A stretch of DNA of 64,000 nucleotides from Hormoscilla sp. GUM202. GTDB lineage: Bacteria; Cyanobacteriota; Cyanobacteriia; Cyanobacteriales; Desertifilaceae. The DNA lies in NCBI GenBank assembly GCA_005518205.2, contig RFFC02000003.1, positions 62,001 through 126,000 of the forward strand. Direction: 5' to 3'. Under the pieces are notes generated by a model. That model was not told where the DNA came from, did no database searches, and worked only from the letters and a program-made list of their open reading frames with translations. This document shows positions 34,957 to 45,865 of the stretch, piece by piece. A program made the position numbers and the translations under genes. Within the stretch, counting starts at the first letter, position 1; each line of letters opens with the position of its first letter.

Positions 34957-36411
34957 ACAGGACTTACGCAGAGGCAATTTTGTAGGGTGGGCACCGCCCA
35001 CCAGAGGCTACAACCGCTACGATATTACGATCAATACTCCGGACAAAATTAGGATGCTATAGCCCCGTAGGCAAGGAGATTCTGGTAGCGAGGGTGTGAT
35101 TTAATCCTCGTCGGCTCGAGGTCAAACAGGGAAATAAATAATTCCAAAAGATGCTCATTTAGGGCTAGCCGTTTGTAGGAAGCGATGGAGAAACTGAGCG
35201 GTTCTGTGGTCTGCTGCTGCTGCAAGGCTGCTTTCGCGAGATTCAGGGCTGTGAGACTGGCATTGACATGGGAATCGAGAGCCTCAGGGGATCGTGCCTG
35301 ACAATCGGCGAGTCCAGTAAACTGTCGTGCATCACGGAAAATAAATTCAATTTGAAAACGAGCAGTGTAGCATTGATAGAGGTAGAGGGGGTCAATCTCC
35401 AGATCGGTGGAGAACAACACGACCGAGCTGCGCTTTCCATTTTGTTCTTTGAGCAGATACGCTAAACGGATACGTCGCTTGAGACTCACAGACCAGACTA
35501 CAGCTGTGTAGAGTTGGACGTCGCCATCGAGGGTTTCAACGAATTCAAAGCGACTGGGGTCAGTTAGGTCCACCTTGCCGTCGTAGCGCCTGGGTCGTCC
35601 GCGTCCCTTCAAGGGACCTTCATAGAGGAACTTGAGGTTGGCATCACGGCGTAATTTACCAATGGAGTGTAATCCCAATTGCACTACCCCTTCCACCCAC
35701 TTGTATTTGCTATAGAAGCCATCGGCAGCCACATAGCGCACCCCGGTCGGGAAATAAGTTTGACAATAGGCCAGATGCCCCAGATAGAAGTCAAGCCGGT
35801 TGCCATGAGACTCGCCATCTGTTGTGCCGGGTGGTGTCTGAGCTGCTAATTGGGGTTCGGTTTGTTGGGCAGATAGGGTGTAGCCAGTATTCTGCTCCAG
35901 GTCTACAATCGCCACGACGGACCATTCCAGACCACGCTCGGCTCGTTGCGTTTTGCCGTTATAAAACCAATCTAGTCCGTGAGTATGACGGCCACTTTTC
36001 TCAATAAACGTGCAATCAACTACGGCTATCTGACAACTCTGAGATGGTCTGACTTGGCCTACCAAGACCTGGTTGATACCCTCAAGCCCCAACCCTTTCT
36101 GGAAGTGCCGGCGGTAGGTCCGCTCTGACAGATGAGAGTAGCGACTCAAGTTTGTGTAGTTGACTTTGCCACAAACCACGAAAATGGTGGTGAGCAAGGT
36201 CAGCAAAAACTGCCGTTGGGGTTTGTGGAAATTGCTTACAGTCTCCAGCAGACCGGTTATAATCCTCTTGAGGCTATCCATCGGTGCGGGGAGTATGAAA
36301 GTTTACTACCGCAGTCTACACGGTGGATAGCTTTCCTCCAAGCTCCCCCTGACCCTGAAAAACTGTCCGGAGTATTGTACGATATAACGGTTCAAAAAGC
36401 GTAAGTCCTGT
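34957..36411 (-). mobile_element. DDE insertion sequence (IS4-like superfamily), 1455 bp
   Basis: Inverted ends ACAGGACTTACGC (34957) and GCGTAAGTCCTGT (to 36411), with a second subterminal inverted pair CAATACTCCGGACA (35032) / TGTCCGGAGTATTG (36364). The flanks both carry TAA (34954-34956, 36412-36414), a possible 3-bp target duplication. It encodes one transposase. The right end lies only 35 bp before the ndhO start codon, so the element displaced or replaced the ndhO promoter. Confidence 0.8.
35049..36281 (-). CDS. DDE transposase of the 34957-36411 element
   Basis: 410 residues. First Asp in IAVVDCTFIEKSGRHTHGLD, second in YVAADGFYSKYKWVE, Glu in RFQIEFIFRDARQFTG; the N-terminal YTNLSRYSHLSERTYRRHFQ is a helix-turn-helix-like DNA-binding region. 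The typical Y-x2-R-FQ-IEF C1 motif is present (YTARFQIEF). Frame intact, start and stop inside the inverted ends, so it may be active. I would place it in the IS4/IS701-like superfamily without a firm family name. Confidence 0.85.
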   Translation of the reverse strand: MDSLKRIITGLLETVSNFHKPQRQFLLTLLTTIFVVCGKVNYTNLSRYSHLSERTYRRHFQKGLGLEGINQVLVGQVRPSQSCQIAVVDCTFIEKSGRHTHGLDWFYNGKTQRAERGLEWSVVAIVDLEQNTGYTLSAQQTEPQLAAQTPPGTTDGESHGNRLDFYLGHLAYCQTYFPTGVRYVAADGFYSKYKWVEGVVQLGLHSIGKLRRDANLKFLYEGPLKGRGRPRRYDGKVDLTDPSRFEFVETLDGDVQLYTAVVWSVSLKRRIRLAYLLKEQNGKRSSVVLFSTDLEIDPLYLYQCYTARFQIEFIFRDARQFTGLADCQARSPEALDSHVNASLTALNLAKAALQQQQTTEPLSFSIASYKRLALNEHLLELFISLFDLEPTRIKSHPRYQNLLAYGAIAS

Positions 36412-36446: not shown

Positions 36447-36556
36447 ATGGCAGATACAATCAAGAAGGGTTCGTTGGTTCGCGCGGTTCGCGAAAAGTTG
36501 GAAAATAGTCTGGAAGCTAAGGCTAGCGACGCGCGCTTCTCGTCTTATATCTTTGA
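36447..36556 (+). CDS. ndhO: NdhO, NAD(P)H-quinone oxidoreductase subunit O, exon 1
   Basis: ATG at 36447; reads [20 protein letters not shown], then [16 protein letters not shown], and ends two bases into the next codon at 36556, where a group II intron starts (GTGCG). Unspliced translation would stop after eight more codons. Joined to 38960-39071 the frame gives a 73-residue NdhO. NdhO is a small cyanobacterial/plastid subunit on the cytoplasmic side of NDH-1, which modulates cyclic electron flow. A DDE insertion sequence ends 35 bp upstream. Confidence 0.9.
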
Positions 36557-38959
36557 GTGCGATTCGTTTAGCGTAAACTGAATTGACACAAGTCAATAAT
36601 GGTGACCGCTAGCAGGGTTTCATTAGCCTTGACAACTTACAGATGATGGTGGTGAAAGCCCACCCCTCCAGGTGCAGGAGTGACAGCACCCTCCCCACGG
36701 TAGAGATGGCATCAATCCGTGAAGCGGGAAGGAAAGGCGCTCTAATCGGTAGCCTAAACCGGTTATCGCCAAGCAAGTAGTCATGATGAGCGAAAGCGAA
36801 GGTTTACAGATGTCGTTATTAAGAACCAGCGTAATAAGGCTGAGACGCTGGCCCAAAAGGGAAAGGATATAGGTCATTGGCGGACTCAAGGCCGACCAAT
36901 AAGCACTGACCATAAACCCGGCATATAGAACCTATCTAAAACTACAACCAATCATCTGTAGGAACGAAGTAAACCAGGTATGTACTCTCAATCACCGGTC
37001 GATAGATTGAGTAGCCACCACAGGCGCAAACTCTGCTCTCCGGAAGGCAGGTCATACTTGGGAAAGATTGAGTGGAGAAGCACAAACGCCCATCTGTAAT
37101 GGATGGGATAAGCTAACGCCCTCACGGTTTCGTCAATTGTGAAGTTGTGAGTAGTAGTTAATATGTCACGGAACACCATCAATAGAAGAGTGTATGACTG
37201 GAAGACTATCCCCTGGCAGAAGCTAGAGCGAGTAGTTTTTAAGCTGCAAAAACGAATTTACAGAGCGGCACAGGAAGGCAATAGACAAAAAGTTCGCAAG
37301 CTCCAAGGGTTACTGAATAGGTCATGGTCCGCAAAGATGATAGCGGTACGGCAGGTAAGTCAACAGAACCAGGGAAAGAAAACGGCAGGTGTGGATGGAG
37401 TGAAAGCTCTAACCCCAAAGCAACGTCAGGAACTGGTAAGCCAACTCAGAGTCACCAAAAAGGTTAAGGCAAAACCCACACGAAGAGTATGGATACCAAA
37501 ACCAGGAGGGGACGAAAAGAGGCCATTAGGGATACCGACAATGCACGACCGCGCATTACAAGGGTTGGTCAAACAGGCGCTAGAACCCGAATGGGAGGCG
37601 TACATGGAAGCCAACTCATACGGATTCAGATCGGGGAGAGGATGCCACGATGCAATAGAAGCGATATTCAACAGCATCAAGACGAAACCCAAATGGGTAT
37701 TAGATGCGGATATTGCGAAATGCTTCGACAGAATCAGTCACTCAGCACTCCTTGATAAACTGAATACAACATCACCAATCCGCAGACAAATACGGGCATG
37801 GTTAAAAGCCGGGGTGATAGACCAGGGAACATGGCAAACCACGGAAACCGGGACTCCACAGGGGGGAGTAATATCCCCATTACTGGCCAATATAGCCCTT
37901 CACGGACTAGAAAAGGAAGTAATGAGCCTCGCGCAAACGAAAAAGGAAAAGGCAAAACTGACAATAGTCAGATACGCCGATGACTTTGTGGTTATGCATG
38001 ATGACCGGTCAATGATTGAACAAGCAAGAGGAGTAGTTGAGGACTGGCTAAAAGGAATAGGTCTAGAGTTAAAAGCCGAAAAAACAAGGATATCTCACAC
38101 GCAGGAGGGAGAGAGCCCAGGATTCGATTTCCTAGGGTTCAATATCCGACAGTACAAAATGGGGAAACATAGAAGCGGCAAAAACTCTAACGGGACCACC
38201 CTAGGATTCAAGACCCTAATCAAACCAAGTAACAAATCCATTAGGAAACATAAAGAACAGCTATCACAGATAGTTAAAAGCCATAAATGTACACCACAAA
38301 CAGCGTTGATAGCAAAACTGAACCCGGTAATACGGGGATGGAGTAACTATTTCAGGACAGTGGTAAGTAAGGAAACTTACAACGACATGGACAATCACCT
38401 ATGGAAATTACTCTGGCAATGGGCAACACGACGGCATCACAACAAATCAGGGCAATGGATAGCTAAGAAATACTGGACCACTGAAGGTAAGAACCATTGG
38501 GTATTTGCCGGCAAGTCCAGAGAAATTGGCGAAATAACAATGGCCAAACACTCCGAAACTGAGATAGTCAGACACGTAAAGGTGAAAGGTACAGCTAGCC
38601 CTTTCGACGGTAACCTAGTCTATTGGAGCCAAAGATTACGGAAGAGCCCAGATGTAAGCACAAGAATAATAAAGCTGCTCAAGAGGCAGGATGGCAAGTG
38701 CAGGCTATGCGGACTAACGTTCAAGGATGGTGACAAATGGGAAGTGGACCATATCCTGCCAACCTCAAGGGGAGGTAAGGACTGGTATGCAAACCTACAG
38801 TTGCTACACGATTATTGCCACGACTATAAGTCTGCCAGAGATGGTAGCAAAGGCCGTATCCATGACAAGGATGACGAAACTGAGGAGCCGGATGAGGTGA
38901 AAGTCTCACGTCCGGTTCTGAAGACGAGTCGGTCCGGTGACGGACTGGCTTAGTGTAAT
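36557..38959 (+). mobile_element. group II intron inserted in ndhO
   Basis: The 5' boundary GTGCG fits the GUGYG consensus; the 3' boundary TAAT fits AY. Domain V (34 nt, 38885-38918) starts GAGCCGGATGAGG and ends CACGTCCGGTTC, the classical catalytic hairpin with AGC; domain VI follows. About 600 nt of structured non-coding RNA (36557-37162, domains I-IV) precede the maturase gene. Removal of exactly this interval joins ndhO in frame. The ORF runs through domains IV-VI. A 3' fragment of a related intron lies at 60053-60229. Confidence 0.9.
37163..38953 (+). CDS. ltrA: group II intron maturase/reverse transcriptase with HNH endonuclease
   Basis: 596 residues. RT domain: [12 protein letters not shown] (RT1), [21 protein letters not shown] (RT2/3), [13 protein letters not shown] (RT3 acid), [21 protein letters not shown] (RT4), the catalytic YADDF near residue 270 and FDFLGFNIR (RT7). 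Maturase/X domain: [14 protein letters not shown]-terminal HNH: CRLCGL...[24 protein letters not shown]. It should help splicing and retrohoming into DNA. No frameshift. The last about 25 codons translate domains V-VI of the intron itself, so the natural protein end may be later than the functional domain end. Confidence 0.95.
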
Positions 38960-39071
38960 AACTAAAGGCGAGGTGATGGATACGCGGGGAGACTATGCCT
39001 TGGTAAAGTTTGGGTTCGTGCCGACGTCGAATATTTGGTTGCGCATCGACCAGTTGGAAATATTTGAGTAA
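38960..39071 (+). CDS. ndhO: NdhO exon 2
   Basis: Completes the Glu codon split by the intron and continues [20 protein letters not shown] and [16 protein letters not shown] to the TAA at 39071, matching the C-terminal half of NdhO. If the intron ended three bases later (after TAATAAC) the frame would also hold; the TAAT end is preferred because the second intron copy at 60229 shares it. Confidence 0.9.
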
Positions 39072-39105
39072 ATTGATGGCCAAAGCCCACAGACAGCAAG
39101 TCTGG

Positions 39106-39201
39106 GGCGAGGCGCTTTCGCGCCTGGGAAGCACTAAAGTGCTTACTACGAACGGCGAGGCGCTTTCGCGCCTGGAAAGCACTAAAGTGCTTACTACGAA
39201 C
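39106..39201. repeat. two tandem 48-bp repeats with GGCGAGGCGCTTTCGCGCC
   Basis: Units at 39106-39153 and 39154-39201 differ by one base. Each holds a GAGGCGCTTTCGCGCCT hairpin and AGCACTAAAGTGCT hairpin followed by TACTACGAACGG. The last word is the inverse of the repeat at 9537-9606. Located between ndhO and the putative defence operon. Confidence 0.7.
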
Positions 39202-39286
39202 GGTTTTGAGACTTGACTCAGTTCACAAACCAGTTCAGATGGATTATGGTTAGTTTATACTAAAACAATCAAGCAAGAAAAGTGAT

Positions 39287-39973
39287 ATGGCATCAACGAC
39301 AGGTATACAAGGCACTCCATTACAAGTCAAAACCCGCGTCCTGCTGACATTGTGGGCAATGGAACAGGATCGCGAGGAAGTCAAGAAAAGTGAACTGATT
39401 CAGAAAAGTAAGCGGAGTAGGGAGAAGGCTGGAGACTATAAGGGCATTTTACAAGAACTACTCGAAGCTGGGGCGATCGCGATCGTCACGGAAAACCGAG
39501 TGGCGAAGGTGTCCCTGACAGAGAAAGGTAAGCAAATTCTCGGGGAAGGACTGAAAAACCCGGAGTTCAGCTTTGAGGGCAATCAAGTTGGCTCAAAGGT
39601 GGTGAATGCGGTGCTGGACTGGTATCGCCAGTCCGATGCTAATGTCCCGACTGCGCTGGTGACAGAGAAAGTGGAAGCCAAAGAGGGGGCGATCGCCTCT
39701 TATGAAGACTTCCAGTCGAAAGTCCTGGCCCTATTCGAGAAGCTCGACATTGGTTACAACTACAGCGGACTTGTCCCCATTTGGCATCTGCGTCGGGAAC
39801 TAGGAGAGGCCGTCGGTCGCGAGGAATTTAACGAGTGGATAATGGAAATGCAGGCGCAGAAGTTGTTCTATCTGCAAAGCGGTGAGGCCCGTGGAGCTAC
39901 TGATGACCAGAAGCAAGATTCAATTACCAGTGAAGTCCGAGGACTTTTGTTTTACGCTAGCCAACCATCTTGA
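39287..39973 (+). CDS. winged-helix-like protein, first gene of the putative defence operon
   Basis: 228 residues. N-terminal half has a helix-turn-helix/winged pattern: QVKTRVLLTLWAMEQDREEV, KGILQELLEAGAIAIV and KVSLTEKGKQILGEGL, i.e. helix, recognition helix and beta wing. A second similar domain appears at 150-200 (LDIGYNYSGLVPIWHLRREL, FNEWIMEMQAQKLFYLQSGE), typical of a tandem wHTH with a WHLRRELG motif. No catalytic motif. Followed after 16 bp by the ATPase gene. Likely a DNA-binding or adaptor component. An AT-rich stretch with TTTATACTAAA (39251) could be the promoter. Confidence 0.75.
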   Translation: MASTTGIQGTPLQVKTRVLLTLWAMEQDREEVKKSELIQKSKRSREKAGDYKGILQELLEAGAIAIVTENRVAKVSLTEKGKQILGEGLKNPEFSFEGNQVGSKVVNAVLDWYRQSDANVPTALVTEKVEAKEGAIASYEDFQSKVLALFEKLDIGYNYSGLVPIWHLRRELGEAVGREEFNEWIMEMQAQKLFYLQSGEARGATDDQKQDSITSEVRGLLFYASQPS

Positions 39974-39989
39974 ACTGCGGAGAGAAAAC

Positions 39990-41822
39990 ATGAGCGATAT
40001 CTATAAGCTATTTGCCGAGGCCCGCCAGCAAGGACCTAATCCTTTTCGACTGGAAACGGTGATCTCCGATCGAGAGGTTTGGGGTGATGTGTTGACTGAC
40101 CTTCCTAACCTGAATCGGGATATTGATGAAACAATATACCAGGCAATTGCTGAGGTGCGCCAACAGGATTCCAGTAAAATTGGCGTTGCCATCCAGGGCG
40201 ATCGCGGAACGGGAAAAAGCCATGCCATCCATCGGCTCTGGAAAAATATTGAAAGGGAAGGGGGAGCGGTATTTGCCTACATACCCCCCACTCTAAATCC
40301 CCGTCTGATTAACTCTCATGTCCGGTTTTATCTGTGCGAGAGTTTCAAGCATCAAGATCGACAGGGTGCCAGTCAATGGCAGAAGCTGTCTACCGCAGTC
40401 ATCGCTACCTTAAAAGGCACGGAATTTGAACAGGAGTATCAAGAATACTTGGAACTTGTTGAGCAACCAGAAAACCTCAGAAAATACATTAAGAAAAAGA
40501 TCGCCAAGGACAATTTGCTCGATTGGATGATGGATCTGGTTGATTGTATTGTGGAAATTAAACCGGAACTAGATCCTGATTTTGTCAAGGCAGTCTTATT
40601 CTTGCTGTTCAAGAACGATCGCTACGCCCAGGCAGCGTTAGCATGGATTAAAGGGGAAGATCACCCCAATATTAAAGATTTACTGGGTTTGCCCGAATAT
40701 TCAACAGAAGTACAGGATGAAAGGTCTATCTGGATGATGGAGCAGATCTGCAAAGTTGCTGAAGTTGCGGCACTACCTGTACTGATTTGCTTTGACCAGT
40801 TAGATAGTGCCGAACCGGATATTGAGACGGGAGATAGTCCCGCACAAACAGTGGCTAGGTGTATCGATCGCATTTATATGCAGTGCAGTAATTTAATTGT
40901 TCTGTGTTGCGTCATCAGCGATACCTGGAGGGAAATTAAGCAAATGGGAAGTGGGATCCCCGATCGGGTGGGTCAACGGTCGGTAATGGCCAAACCTCCC
41001 ACTGACGAACAGATGATAGAGATTGTCCAAAGCAGGTTGAATTGGTTTTACCAAAAGCATAATCTCCAGGTCCAGGACTATCCTGATTTATATCCTTTAG
41101 AGTCAAGTAAAATAAGGAATATTGCCAGGGAAGGTGCCGGAGTTCGTTCTGTTCTGGAAGAGTGCGCCAAAATATTTGATTCAGTAGGAGTTGATAGTCA
41201 AAGCTTAGTCAGAAATGAAGGAGACAATATCCCGAAAAAATTTCGGGATATTTATCATGACATCCTCGAACGAGTTAATGATACCATGAAGGATGATTAC
41301 CATCTGGCTGATGACAATCTAGCAGCAATTATCGCTCAGAACATCAGAATGCTTCCTGAAGGAGGAACGGCCTTCGTGGTCGTCGATCGAGTTGAAGAGG
41401 TTAATAGTTCATCCCACGATATCCAGTTCACTATATCTGGGTACGATCAATTTCGTCAAAAGCAAGTGAAAATTGGGGTAAAAGTTTGTGAAACTGAAAA
41501 TGGGCATACCTTTAATGCAGTGATGAAGCGACTGCTGGACTACGAAAAACATCAGATAACCCGTAGTTGTTTATTGCGTTATCATGAAGTGCCGAAAAAA
41601 TGGAAGAAAGGTAAACAGCTAGAGCAGGAACTGGTGGCGGAAAAAGGCGGAAAAGTGGTTCTTTGGGAACGAGAAGGAATCTTGCCTTTAGTTGCGCTCA
41701 AGAGAATCTACGATGAAGCAGAGGAACATGGATTTGCAAAAGAGGAGGTAAGCAATCTCGTCAAGGAGTTAAAATTAGAGGTTGACAATCAACTAATTCA
41801 TCAGATTCTCAGGGATGGGTAA
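39990..41822 (+). CDS. AAA+/STAND-like P-loop ATPase, second gene of the putative defence operon
   Basis: 610 residues from the ATG at 39990 (GGAGAG at 39979-39984); the frame is open earlier but overlaps the previous gene. Walker A GDRGTGKS at 70-77, Walker B PVLICFDQLD at 263-272, sensor-1-like NLIVLCCVISDTW at 301-313, and a lid helix rich in KPPTDEQMIEIVQSRLNWFY. The fold resembles ORC/Cdc6-like or BrxD-like ATPases. A C-terminal domain (about 470-600) with beta-rich IQFTISGYDQFRQKQVKIGV may engage DNA or the nuclease partner. Stop and next start are 2 bp apart. It probably powers or gates the nuclease encoded next. Confidence 0.85.
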   Translation: MSDIYKLFAEARQQGPNPFRLETVISDREVWGDVLTDLPNLNRDIDETIYQAIAEVRQQDSSKIGVAIQGDRGTGKSHAIHRLWKNIEREGGAVFAYIPPTLNPRLINSHVRFYLCESFKHQDRQGASQWQKLSTAVIATLKGTEFEQEYQEYLELVEQPENLRKYIKKKIAKDNLLDWMMDLVDCIVEIKPELDPDFVKAVLFLLFKNDRYAQAALAWIKGEDHPNIKDLLGLPEYSTEVQDERSIWMMEQICKVAEVAALPVLICFDQLDSAEPDIETGDSPAQTVARCIDRIYMQCSNLIVLCCVISDTWREIKQMGSGIPDRVGQRSVMAKPPTDEQMIEIVQSRLNWFYQKHNLQVQDYPDLYPLESSKIRNIAREGAGVRSVLEECAKIFDSVGVDSQSLVRNEGDNIPKKFRDIYHDILERVNDTMKDDYHLADDNLAAIIAQNIRMLPEGGTAFVVVDRVEEVNSSSHDIQFTISGYDQFRQKQVKIGVKVCETENGHTFNAVMKRLLDYEKHQITRSCLLRYHEVPKKWKKGKQLEQELVAEKGGKVVLWEREGILPLVALKRIYDEAEEHGFAKEEVSNLVKELKLEVDNQLIHQILRDG

Positions 41823-41824
41823 AG

Positions 41825-43282
41825 ATGAGTATCAAAATCAGCAGAGGAATTCAACTGTCAGCTTTTGATGTGGAAATGCTGACCTCGGGCCGGCTAATTG
41901 CCGTGCCGTTCAAACATTACAGGAAGAATGGCGAAATATTCTGGCTTTATCCCAGTCAGCAACTGCCAGATAATCTAAGTTGGGAGCAATACTATCAGCC
42001 GGAATATTTAATTAAGGTTGAGAGGTCATTAGCAAAATGTCAAACCTATCCCCTCCAAATTGAGGTTTGGGGACGTTGCGAAGAACATTGGCATGTTACG
42101 CCAGAGCAAAAGCATCTTTTACCTCAGATTGCTTCGTCAACGGTCTGGAATTTGAGTGCCTTGGAATATATGTTTGAACAGCATCAAGTTCTCAAGCTGT
42201 TGTTTTTGCGAGTCTATCGTTTGTCCAGTCCTTGTCTGGTTAATGTGCCACCTAAACCAGCTCCTTTCTTCTTCCCTCAGTCGGAGGATGTAATGACGAT
42301 CGCAAATACTACGGATATTCCAGTGGTCTCGGAAGCCAGTTTTAACAGGCGTAAAGCTCTTTTGTTGGCGGGAGAGGTTCATCCTCATAGGGACTTGGAG
42401 CTGTTGGAACTGCAAGTTTCGGAAATTGACTGTGATAACTCGGCTGCTGGACAGCTACAGTCGGATATTAACGTATTTTTGAGAGGGACTAGGGAGACGG
42501 TAACGCGGGAACCAGATCGGGATTTAGATTGGATTCAGCAAATTGCCGCTGTGGGCAATTCTAGCGATGGCAATGAGTTTGAAAAGCTAGTCCGCAAAGG
42601 TTTGATTCTGCTGGGCTTTTCTAATGATAACACAAATCCCCAAATCAGTCTGGACCCAGAGGCAACGGGGGGCGCTGGGGGTTTAGACTTTTATTGTGCA
42701 TCTCCTTATCCTGTGGTGGGAGAATGTAAAGCAACTAAAACCACAAAGGTGCCGGATGGAACGGCTGCACAGTTAATTAAGCTGGGCTATAAGCACCTTC
42801 AGGAAAGCTATGATGATTGTGTTAAGTTAATTATCGCCGCTGGGGAACTAACGCCAGATGCTCGCCAAACTGCTGAGGGGAACAAAATAAGCGTGATTAG
42901 TCCGGAAATTCTGCAACGTATGGTAGAAATGCAAGCCAAGTATCCAGGTTGTATTGATTTGATAAAGCTTAAGGAATGCTTCCAAAGTGCTTATGGTTTG
43001 GCTGACGAACAGGTGGCACAATATCTGCAACAGGTGCGCGGCGAAATAGAGTTGCGATCGCGCCTCGTGGAGTTAGTGAAAAACTACCTGGAAAACTCAA
43101 AGTCTGATAGTGCGGGTGTAGAAACTTTACATGGTGCTTATTTTAGTTCTAACCCGCCTCAGTCATTAACCCCAGAACAACTGCAGGAAATTTTGATTGA
43201 GCTTTCGTCGCCGCTAACAGGTTATTTGGGTAGGAAGGGCGATCGCTTTTATTTCCTGCGCCCTTTGCTGATGGATGCTTGA
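41825..43282 (+). CDS. DUF1802-like N-terminus with PD-(D/E)XK nuclease domain, third gene of the operon
   Basis: 485 residues. Residues 1-150 resemble the DUF1802 domain: LTSGRLIAVPFKHYRKNGEIFWLYPSQ-like start, QIEVWGRCEEHWHV and LEYMFEQHQVLKLLFLRVY. From about 240 comes a restriction-endonuclease fold: GNEFEKLVRKGLILLGF (Glu251/253), GGLDFY (Asp288), VGECKATKT (E-x-K, Glu300/Lys302), then AAQLIKLGYKHLQES. The acidic and Lys positions fit PD-(D/E)XK. It ends with a winged tail (LSSPLTGYLGRKGDRFYFL). Fusion of a sensor-like domain with a nuclease, co-transcribed with an ATPase, suggests DNA-targeting defence; this is inference. Confidence 0.8.
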   Translation: MSIKISRGIQLSAFDVEMLTSGRLIAVPFKHYRKNGEIFWLYPSQQLPDNLSWEQYYQPEYLIKVERSLAKCQTYPLQIEVWGRCEEHWHVTPEQKHLLPQIASSTVWNLSALEYMFEQHQVLKLLFLRVYRLSSPCLVNVPPKPAPFFFPQSEDVMTIANTTDIPVVSEASFNRRKALLLAGEVHPHRDLELLELQVSEIDCDNSAAGQLQSDINVFLRGTRETVTREPDRDLDWIQQIAAVGNSSDGNEFEKLVRKGLILLGFSNDNTNPQISLDPEATGGAGGLDFYCASPYPVVGECKATKTTKVPDGTAAQLIKLGYKHLQESYDDCVKLIIAAGELTPDARQTAEGNKISVISPEILQRMVEMQAKYPGCIDLIKLKECFQSAYGLADEQVAQYLQQVRGEIELRSRLVELVKNYLENSKSDSAGVETLHGAYFSSNPPQSLTPEQLQEILIELSSPLTGYLGRKGDRFYFLRPLLMDA

Positions 43283-44881: not shown

Positions 44882-45193
44882 ATGAAAATCTTAACAGATT
44901 ATCTGGGTCGCCAGGTAAGATTAACAGAGGAGCGATTGACACACATTCTACAACGTCCTCAAATGTCCGGTATGGAACCAGCAATTGAGGCGACATTGCA
45001 AAATCCAGAACAGGTAAGAAAATCGAGAACTGACGAAGCTGTTCTTTTGAGCTATCGATATTATACTGGAACAGAAGTAGGCGATAAATGGCTGTGTGTG
45101 GTAGTCAAGTACAGTGAAGAGGATGCTTTTATCCTCACGTCCTATTTAACCGATCAAATCAAAAAAGGAGAACAAGTATGGCCTCAAATGTAA
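44882..45193 (+). CDS. small BECR/DUF4258-like protein, putative toxin (module 1)
   Basis: 103 residues: MKILTDYLGRQVRLTEERLT and LHILQRPQM-like helix (THILQRPQMSGMEPAIEATL), then strands AVLLSYRYYTGTEVGDKWLC and VVVKYSEEDAFILTSYLTD. The RLTxERxxHI...H/Q motif and terminal beta sheet fit the barnase-EndoU-colicin-RelE-like nuclease superfamily, which I cannot confirm. It overlaps the DUF2283 gene by 16 nt, typical of toxin-antitoxin pairs. A paralogous pair is at 45653-46077. Confidence 0.6.
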   Translation: MKILTDYLGRQVRLTEERLTHILQRPQMSGMEPAIEATLQNPEQVRKSRTDEAVLLSYRYYTGTEVGDKWLCVVVKYSEEDAFILTSYLTDQIKKGEQVWPQM

Positions 45194-45399
45194 AAGTTTG
45201 GTATGACAAAGAAGGAGACTATCTGGAAGTTATTTTTTCAGATAAGCCGGGTTATATGCGGGAAACAAACAACGATGCCGTCATGGAAATGGTGGATCGA
45301 GAAGGTAATATTTTAGGATTTTCTATCTTGGCTGTGAGTCGTCTGTCACAGTCAAAGCCATTAGTGGCTGAATTAGTCGGTAAGGGAGAACTAAAATAA
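45178..45399 (+). CDS. DUF2283 family protein, putative antitoxin (module 1)
   Basis: 73 residues, with VKVWYDKEGDYLEVIFSDKP and MVDREGNILGFSILAVS, the two-repeat DUF2283 pattern (D-x-x-x-D-x-L-x-I). AAGGAG lies before the ATG at 45178, inside the end of the previous gene. DUF2283 proteins often accompany DUF4258-like genes; the role is inferred from pairing. Confidence 0.75.
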   Translation: MASNVKVWYDKEGDYLEVIFSDKPGYMRETNNDAVMEMVDREGNILGFSILAVSRLSQSKPLVAELVGKGELK

Positions 45400-45404
45400 A
45401 AGGC

Positions 45405-45730
45405 CGATCGCACCCTTTTTCCAGCAGAAAAGCCATCTGGACCACCAGTCGCGTCTACAAAAAGAAAACCCGCCCTGGCGGGTTTTCCTATTCAAAGATG
45501 AAATTGTTAACAGAATGAAAGGCGATCGCGCTTGCGGTGGGGGATGAATTAAGAAACCCGGTTTTTTTCCATACCGGGTTTCTTAACTGCTGGTGAAACC
45601 TCCCCGCAGTCTGTTGCGCATTGGTGGGCGGTGCCCACCCTACTTTTACCATTCAAATCTCGACTGTTGACAAAGTACACTGCAAGGGTTCAGAATCATC
45701 CACTTGGAAATAAAGCTTTTCAAAACCAAT
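45405..45730. repeat. 325-bp segment inverted-duplicated at 62965-63290
   Basis: Includes a CCAGCAGAAAAGCC/AACCCGC repeat, an AAGAAACCCGGT...ACCGGGTTTCTT hairpin (45551-45584), a GGTGGGCGGTGCCCACC hairpin near 45624 and the last about 25 codons of a DUF2283 gene. The whole block recurs in inverse orientation near the right end of the window, about 17 kb away. Confidence 0.8.
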
Positions 45731-45865
45731 GACTTGCCCATTGCGGTCTTTCATCTGAATAACACCATTCCCCGTTTCTTCGCAAACATATTCATTTTGT
45801 GGATTTCCCCACCAAACCGTCAGGGTATTGCCAATCCGATCGTGAATAATTTTTACTTGACCCAT
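45653..45865 (-). CDS. DUF2283 family protein, putative antitoxin (module 2)
   Basis: 70 residues: VKIIHDRIGNTLTVWWGNP, VIQMKDRNGQVIGFEKLYF and a VDDSEPLQCTLSTVEI tail. Same gene order and a 13-nt overlap with the BECR-like gene as in module 1. The C-terminal half is duplicated in inverse orientation near 62965. Confidence 0.7.
   Translation of the reverse strand: MGQVKIIHDRIGNTLTVWWGNPQNEYVCEETGNGVIQMKDRNGQVIGFEKLYFQVDDSEPLQCTLSTVEI

Follow-up and report, generated by a model that had tools for sequence, protein, structure and literature searches.

The type IV restriction enzymes MspJI, AspBHI, VcaM4I, HhiV4I and DpnI, in which a PUA-superfamily-like sensor and/or a winged helix is fused to a nuclease, act alone. 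McrBC pairs an AAA+ NTPase with a PD-(D/E)XK nuclease, and BREX systems, which to our knowledge have no nuclease, carry the AAA+ proteins BrxC and BrxD. It is also established that target recognition by HsdS, of type I restriction-modification (RM) systems, is exchanged by recombination. According to PMC7897488 and PMC11037411, modification-dependent restriction enzymes are generally built as a PUA-superfamily sensor joined to a nuclease; PMC11037411 presents the reading of 6mA by ASCH domains as predicted, not shown.

Here we compare with these systems a three-gene operon found in a 64,000-nucleotide stretch of DNA from Hormoscilla sp. GUM202 (the window, to which the coordinates below refer unless a locus or contig is named). 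The host we take to be a sponge-dwelling cyanobacterium. An earlier note on this DNA had put the operon forward as a candidate defence system that it did not recognize. The genes and domains of the operon are as follows.

39287..39973, + strand: gene 1, wHTH protein of 228 aa (ORF, weak winged-helix Pfam matches)
39990..41822, + strand: gene 2, AAA+ ATPase of 610 aa, start codon ATG at 39990 (ORF)
39990..41189, + strand: predicted AAA+ domain of the ATPase, residues 1-400, initiator clade (fold comparison of the model)
41217..41819, + strand: C-terminal region of the ATPase, residues 410-610 (secondary structure of the AlphaFold2 model)
41825..43282, + strand: gene 3, DUF1802-nuclease of 485 aa (ORF)
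41825..42319, + strand: DUF1802 domain, residues 1-165, predicted ASCH/PUA-like fold, putative sensor, part of the variable block (Pfam, fold)
42521..43018, + strand: predicted FokI-like PD-(D/E)XK catalytic domain, residues 233-398, with E253/D288/E300/K302 (fold, conservation)
43028..43279, + strand: predicted winged helix at the nuclease C-terminus, residues 402-485 (fold, many winged-helix chains at Z 8-9.6)

The three adjacent genes were recovered as the same ORFs, with the same coordinates, as in the earlier note, and are separated by 16 bp (wHTH/ATPase) and 2 bp (ATPase/nuclease). Co-location of the three families, which the note had proposed as a check, turned out to be strict. The trio was intact and in the order wHTH-ATPase-nuclease at 105 of 116 loci, with median gaps of 45 and 5 bp, and several of the loci that were without a complete ordered trio were contig ends or split genes. 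Given this conservation, the operon is not a chance grouping but a real, conserved unit.

The nuclease chain appears to combine three domains. The DUF1802-like N-terminal domain that had been noted earlier has a Pfam match (PF08819, residues 13-177, E 8.8e-14) of 52.2 bits, above the gathering cut-off of 25. In an AlphaFold2 model of the nuclease (87-sequence alignment, mean pLDDT 90.5), this domain retrieved ASCH proteins at ranks 1-5 and 7-12 in Foldseek (probability 0.99-1.00, E 0.009-0.05) and aligned with 5y6b, 6kir and 2dp9 at the moderate scores of Z 8.1-8.5 (VIA-align). DUF1802 is thus predicted to adopt an ASCH/PUA-superfamily fold, the likeness being one of fold only: ASCH (PF04266) had no Pfam match in the operon proteins, and hhalign returned no match between DUF1802 and a thin, mixed set of cyanobacterial ASCH proteins. 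ASCH proteins can have other roles, on RNA or as enzymes. The assignment of the third gene to the PD-(D/E)XK nucleases, for which the Pfam match to Mrr_cat was sub-threshold (E 0.0021), is upheld by the model, whose catalytic domain superimposes on 2fok at Z 14.9 (rmsd 2.5 Å over 145 residues). As to the catalytic triad, which the note had given as Glu251/253, Asp288 and an E-x-K at 300-302, residues E253, D288, E300 and K302 are kept in 85, 86, 85 and 84 of 87 homologues, respectively, across 36-57% divergence, but E251 is not conserved; the triad is E253, D288 and E300-C-K302. A viral fold library gave only generic nuclease and ASCH matches to the model, and no sequence relatives were found in the PDB. 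On the model, then, a single nuclease chain carries an ASCH/PUA-like DUF1802, a FokI-like PD-(D/E)XK domain and a winged helix, an arrangement like that of modification-dependent restriction enzymes.

The wHTH protein had only weak winged-helix matches in Pfam. The two motifs reported earlier for the second gene lie at residues 70-77 (Walker A, GDRGTGKS) and 267-272 (Walker B, CFDQLD) of the ATPase. Walker A is present in all 67 homologues, with G73, G75 and K76 invariant. Residue 270, the usual Walker B glutamate, is E in 58 of the 67 and Q in Hormoscilla and 8 of the 67; because it is Q in the clade of the Hormoscilla protein, ATP hydrolysis by the latter may be impaired. The AlphaFold2 model of the ATPase (67-sequence alignment, mean pLDDT 90.6) resembles TnsC (Z 13.9), Cdc6/ORC (Z 13.8), BrxC (Z 12.1) and RdrA (Z 11.6). 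The note had described it as BrxD/ORC-like; the model places the protein in the initiator clade (ORC/TnsC/BrxC-like) of AAA+ proteins. In the C-terminal region, residues 463-558 of the model form an alpha/beta domain followed by helices that are probably of the winged-helix type.

The same fold comparison bears on the strongest rival to a DNA-sensing system, namely that the ATPase, in the manner of NLR and Avs proteins, senses an invader protein rather than DNA, oligomerizes and switches on the nuclease, with DNA destruction and abortive infection as the outcome. CED-4 and plant NLR ATPases also resemble the operon ATPase (Z 11.2-11.4), as does RdrA, and AAA_16 and nSTAND gave Pfam matches that were sub-threshold. 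The TnsC and ORC structures outscore the NLR-type ones, however, and no repeat-type ligand-binding domain was seen in the model.

Searches for described counterparts bore out the view that the system is an unrecognized one. The best match in PADLOC-DB 2.0 was mad8 (E 0.0072, P-loop region only), the nuclease had none, no NCBIfam family fits any of the operon proteins, and no match to a described system emerged from either collection. In the literature searched, DUF1802 is mentioned in one paper, which by its title and abstract treats an unrelated topic; PMC7159879 describes its NTP-dependent conflict systems with no mention of ORC or TnsC, in passages on MoxR-vWA systems. The operon is nevertheless related in parts to several known systems. 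Like the five type IV enzymes named above, of which MspJI and AspBHI appeared weakly in the fold search with the operon nuclease, it has no methyltransferase partner beside it: none was present in the complete PADLOC family list of 125 sampled neighbours or in the conserved neighbour clusters examined, which would fit a modification-dependent or otherwise self-sparing logic. It departs from those enzymes in joining DUF1802, of ASCH-like fold, to a FokI-like domain and a winged helix in a single polypeptide, and in having wHTH and AAA+ partners for its nuclease. The pairing of an AAA+ protein with a PD-(D/E)XK nuclease recalls McrBC, but the ATPase is ORC/TnsC-like and not McrB, and the putative sensor forms part of the nuclease polypeptide; McrB and McrC had no Pfam, PADLOC or NCBIfam match in the operon. 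The operon ATPase has an AAA+ fold related to that of BrxC in BREX, and neither PglX/BrxX, PglZ/BrxZ nor BrxB was found in it (nor PglX or PglZ in the conserved neighbour clusters). Finally, the operon is like TnsA-TnsC of Tn7 in that the ATPase fold is nearest to TnsC and a restriction-like nuclease is followed by a winged helix. Unlike Tn7, it has an extra ASCH-like domain and no transposase or TniQ, and TnsA was not among the fold matches listed.

To compare close relatives we took 48 pairs of strains that carry the operon at the same locus and whose pgi is 94% or more identical, and scored the operon in 25-residue bins. The median identity was 84-92% over the N-terminal half of the wHTH protein and 56% at its C-terminal end. 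It was 19-68% along the ATPase (about 48% for Nostoc pairs) and 44-66% over DUF1802 up to residue 150, and 80-96% over the nuclease half. The N-terminal half of the wHTH protein is a constant part; its C-terminal end, the ATPase gene along its entire length and DUF1802 make up a variable block with sharp boundaries at the DNA level; strains with flanks at 95-98% identity can have blocks at only about 45%. The pattern recurs elsewhere on the chromosome, in Argonema-like, Microcoleus-like and Calothrix-like groups, with the pairs L073/L074 (flanks 95%, AAA 41%, DUF1802 49%, catalytic domain 92%) and L135/L137 (flanks 97%, AAA 45%, catalytic domain 91%) as examples. The reverse case is seen in L032/L033 (ATPase 96%, nuclease half 51%).

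Ten Nostoc-like strains gave 45 pairs, not independent of one another, and in every pair the DUF1802 class agreed with the ATPase class: DUF1802 identity was 85% or more in exactly those pairs whose AAA domains were 74% or more identical. The catalytic domain followed neither. Thus, L167 and L108 have the block in common (ATPase 96%/89%, DUF1802 90%) and differ in the catalytic domain (55%), while L128 and L115 have the catalytic domain in common (95%) and differ in the block (43-51%). Trees of the ATPase and of DUF1802 both joined L167 with L108, a grouping that was rejected in the nuclease-half tree by the AU test (p = 7e-73), as was a five-strain class (p = 2.4e-4). Nor does the five-strain class form a clade in a wider ATPase tree (AU p = 2.6e-6), its ATPase type being present in L151 and L138 too. 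To judge from these alignments and trees, the two parts do not share a history: close relatives evidently exchange the block whole, and the nuclease part is swapped separately. The resemblance to HsdS is that recombination would replace a target-recognition part flanked by constant parts, with the locus staying fixed; the differences are that the proteins are unrelated to HsdS, no methyltransferase is involved and the exchange extends across three genes.

Within Hormoscilla itself, a smaller tract of this kind separates the window from a second genome of the genus, G001.

39000..40950, no strand assigned: mosaic tract, 85-97% nucleotide identity to G001, flanks 99-100% (alignment)

The nuclease of the window is 99-100% identical to that of G001, and the reading frame of the G001 ATPase is shifted by a 1-nt difference, which may be an assembly error. 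Diversifying selection between the two Hormoscilla was considered and discarded: dN/dS in the tract was about 0.44 for the wHTH protein and 0.16 for the N-terminal part of the ATPase, indicating imported variation with no clear positive selection.

Hypervariability of the whole ATPase is what would be expected of an NLR-like sensor, but DUF1802 and the C-terminal end of the wHTH protein covary with it, pointing to an interface with DNA or within a complex; we regard protein sensing as unlikely. Strain-level polymorphism at a fixed locus, in hosts that are mainly large-genome and mostly filamentous, could also mark a kin or self/non-self discrimination system of filamentous cyanobacteria, whose block recognizes other strains. 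Polymorphic toxin systems usually diversify the toxic domain and have an immunity gene linked to it. In this operon variation is lower in the nuclease, neither an immunity gene nor a secretion signal was seen, and this reading is to our minds highly improbable. Repeated swapping of a recognition block with the cutting part kept suggests an arms race, and it is this repeated replacement between close relatives that supports a role in conflict.

The operon is chromosomal and usually present in one copy per genome. Of 99 relatives, 49 have the nuclease, 65 a member of the ATPase family and 61 the wHTH protein. Across the phylum the nuclease profile matched 62 of 292 genomes, in some of which the match was confined to an isolated DUF1802 or a piece of the C-terminus, and all 80 loci retained from 241 confirmed matches in a collection of 84,980 species were cyanobacterial by record title. 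The nuclease was absent from the PLSDB plasmids and the phage collection searched, and a pattern-limited search of IMG/VR yielded no ATPase homologues. In 45 of 120 loci the operon lies, with some or all of the genes named, in a core locus of the order psaE-mutM-ndhO-(mdh)-operon-pgi; these operons come from Nostocales, a Microcoleus-like family and Hormoscilla. Where the operon is not intact, the core locus frequently shows a closed site or remnants, namely the beginning of the wHTH gene, the extreme C-terminus of the nuclease or both.

The placement beside mutM, the single copy and the absence from mobile elements would suit a housekeeping module for DNA repair or replication in filamentous cyanobacteria. 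We consider such a module distinctly improbable: the distribution is patchy, decay in situ is recurrent, tandem copies occur, and the block diverges between strains with nearly identical flanks, core repair genes behaving otherwise. The claim that the operon sits in a typical defence island is not supported. It occupies a core locus in many genomes and decays there in others, and the neighbours of loci at other sites comprised 25 PADLOC families in 125 proteins, no richer than control proteins from random regions of the same genomes (54 in 125, at a cut-off of 1e-10).

Tandem ATPase-nuclease units are found in several genomes. Side-by-side units of different subfamilies are present at L123, L097, L104, L107, L121, L122 and L166. 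L123 (Calothrix sp. PCC 7716) carries relatives of both nuclease clades, of which L135 and L137/L145 hold one each, and its tandem is a possible intermediate of allele exchange. A cluster of ORFs of about 214 aa is found near the operon in nine loci (L072, L045, L073, L074, L075, L089, L120, L142 and L149); its L072 member (L072:9619-10296) is a putative endonuclease of the Uma2 family and lies between ATPase and nuclease. Short ORFs and fragments limited to the C-terminal domain of the nuclease (about 60-115 residues; L039:15035-15385, L213, L215 and G343:C1:1838234), several of them at the ancestral locus, are mostly remnants, although some are intact frames of 116-136 aa.

In the window, ndhO does lie upstream of the operon, as had been noted, but is split at 36447-39069 by a group II intron with a reverse transcriptase-maturase-HNH ORF (37163-38953). 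The 5' exon (about 36447-36557) ends in SSYIFE and the 3' exon spans about 38966-39069; Rfam places D5/D6 of the intron at 38882-38959, and the intron is also present in G001 (L031). A DDE transposase between mutM and ndhO (35049-36281) is missing in G001 (alignment gap 35.0-36.4 kb). The interval between ndhO and the operon contains, at 39107-39202, two copies of the palindromic repeat AAGCACTAAAGTGCTTACTACGAACG 48 bp apart, with no further copy in the window. Downstream, an overlapping gene pair at 44882-45399, PBECR2-like (RelE/barnase-type nuclease, sub-threshold) and then DUF2283, is a likely toxin-antitoxin, and a second DUF2283 lies at 45653-45865.

The same genome contains a paralogous operon (L051:8379-14016; G000:C18:68-74k), with partial copies at G000:C4:227696 and C5:196136. 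It encodes a wHTH protein of 289 aa, an ATPase of 674 aa and an 887-aa fusion of a DEDD exonuclease, a PD-(D/E)XK domain and an FtsK motor, the C-terminus of which matches SspH (E 3e-69). Paralogous operons of this kind, often with two ATPases, are widespread in cyanobacteria, clear matches to the fusion recur in many of the 99 relatives, and the arrangement looks like another undescribed system. The wHTH + ATPase pair would thus serve at least two nuclease effectors. The paralogue also provides a tie to DndFGH/SspFGH, from which the three-gene unit differs in having no FtsK/HerA (DndH/SspH) protein; PADLOC DndF/G and SspF/G had no match to the operon proteins.

What, then, does the operon do? 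We think it probable, though by no means assured, that it is an NTP-dependent, type IV-like restriction system, directed against phage or other foreign DNA, whose recognition cassette can be exchanged. That it acts against phages, targets DNA and senses modified bases is what we infer. The wHTH protein and the ATPase would assemble on DNA as an ORC/TnsC/BrxC-like oligomer, and the block as a whole would form one recognition assembly that sets target specificity. Base flipping, the mode of SRA, EVE and YTH domains, would let DUF1802 read a base or a feature of the DNA. ATP-driven assembly would bring two FokI-like domains together to cut, and a swap of the block would give each strain a different specificity, as HsdS does in type I RM. 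Counting against restriction are the lack of island enrichment, the absence from the plasmid, phage and IMG/VR collections, the likeness of DUF1802 to ASCH in fold only, the other roles open to ASCH proteins and the glutamine in Walker B of the ATPase. Of the original proposal, what stands is an uncharacterized unit whose role in conflict is backed by block exchange; the argument from an island fails, and block exchange is the stronger argument in its place. An undescribed nuclease system, likely for defence, is a plausible description.

More tentatively, and with rather less than even confidence, we suggest that the operon is an undescribed cyanobacterial immune system at a core locus, in which a three-gene specificity cassette with a new PUA-like reader of modified DNA, DUF1802, is exchanged independently of a constant FokI-like effector, an AAA+ analogue of HsdS switching. 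If so, filamentous cyanobacteria would have a new immune system, and DUF1802 would gain a fold and a likely role. Nature would offer pairs of close strains whose main difference is the putative specificity block, and recognition would be directly testable by swapping it. A defence locus would, in this case, evolve through allele exchange at an unchanging core position instead of in mobile islands, and fixed-locus defence of this sort would tend to escape surveys based on neighbourhood ("guilt by association").
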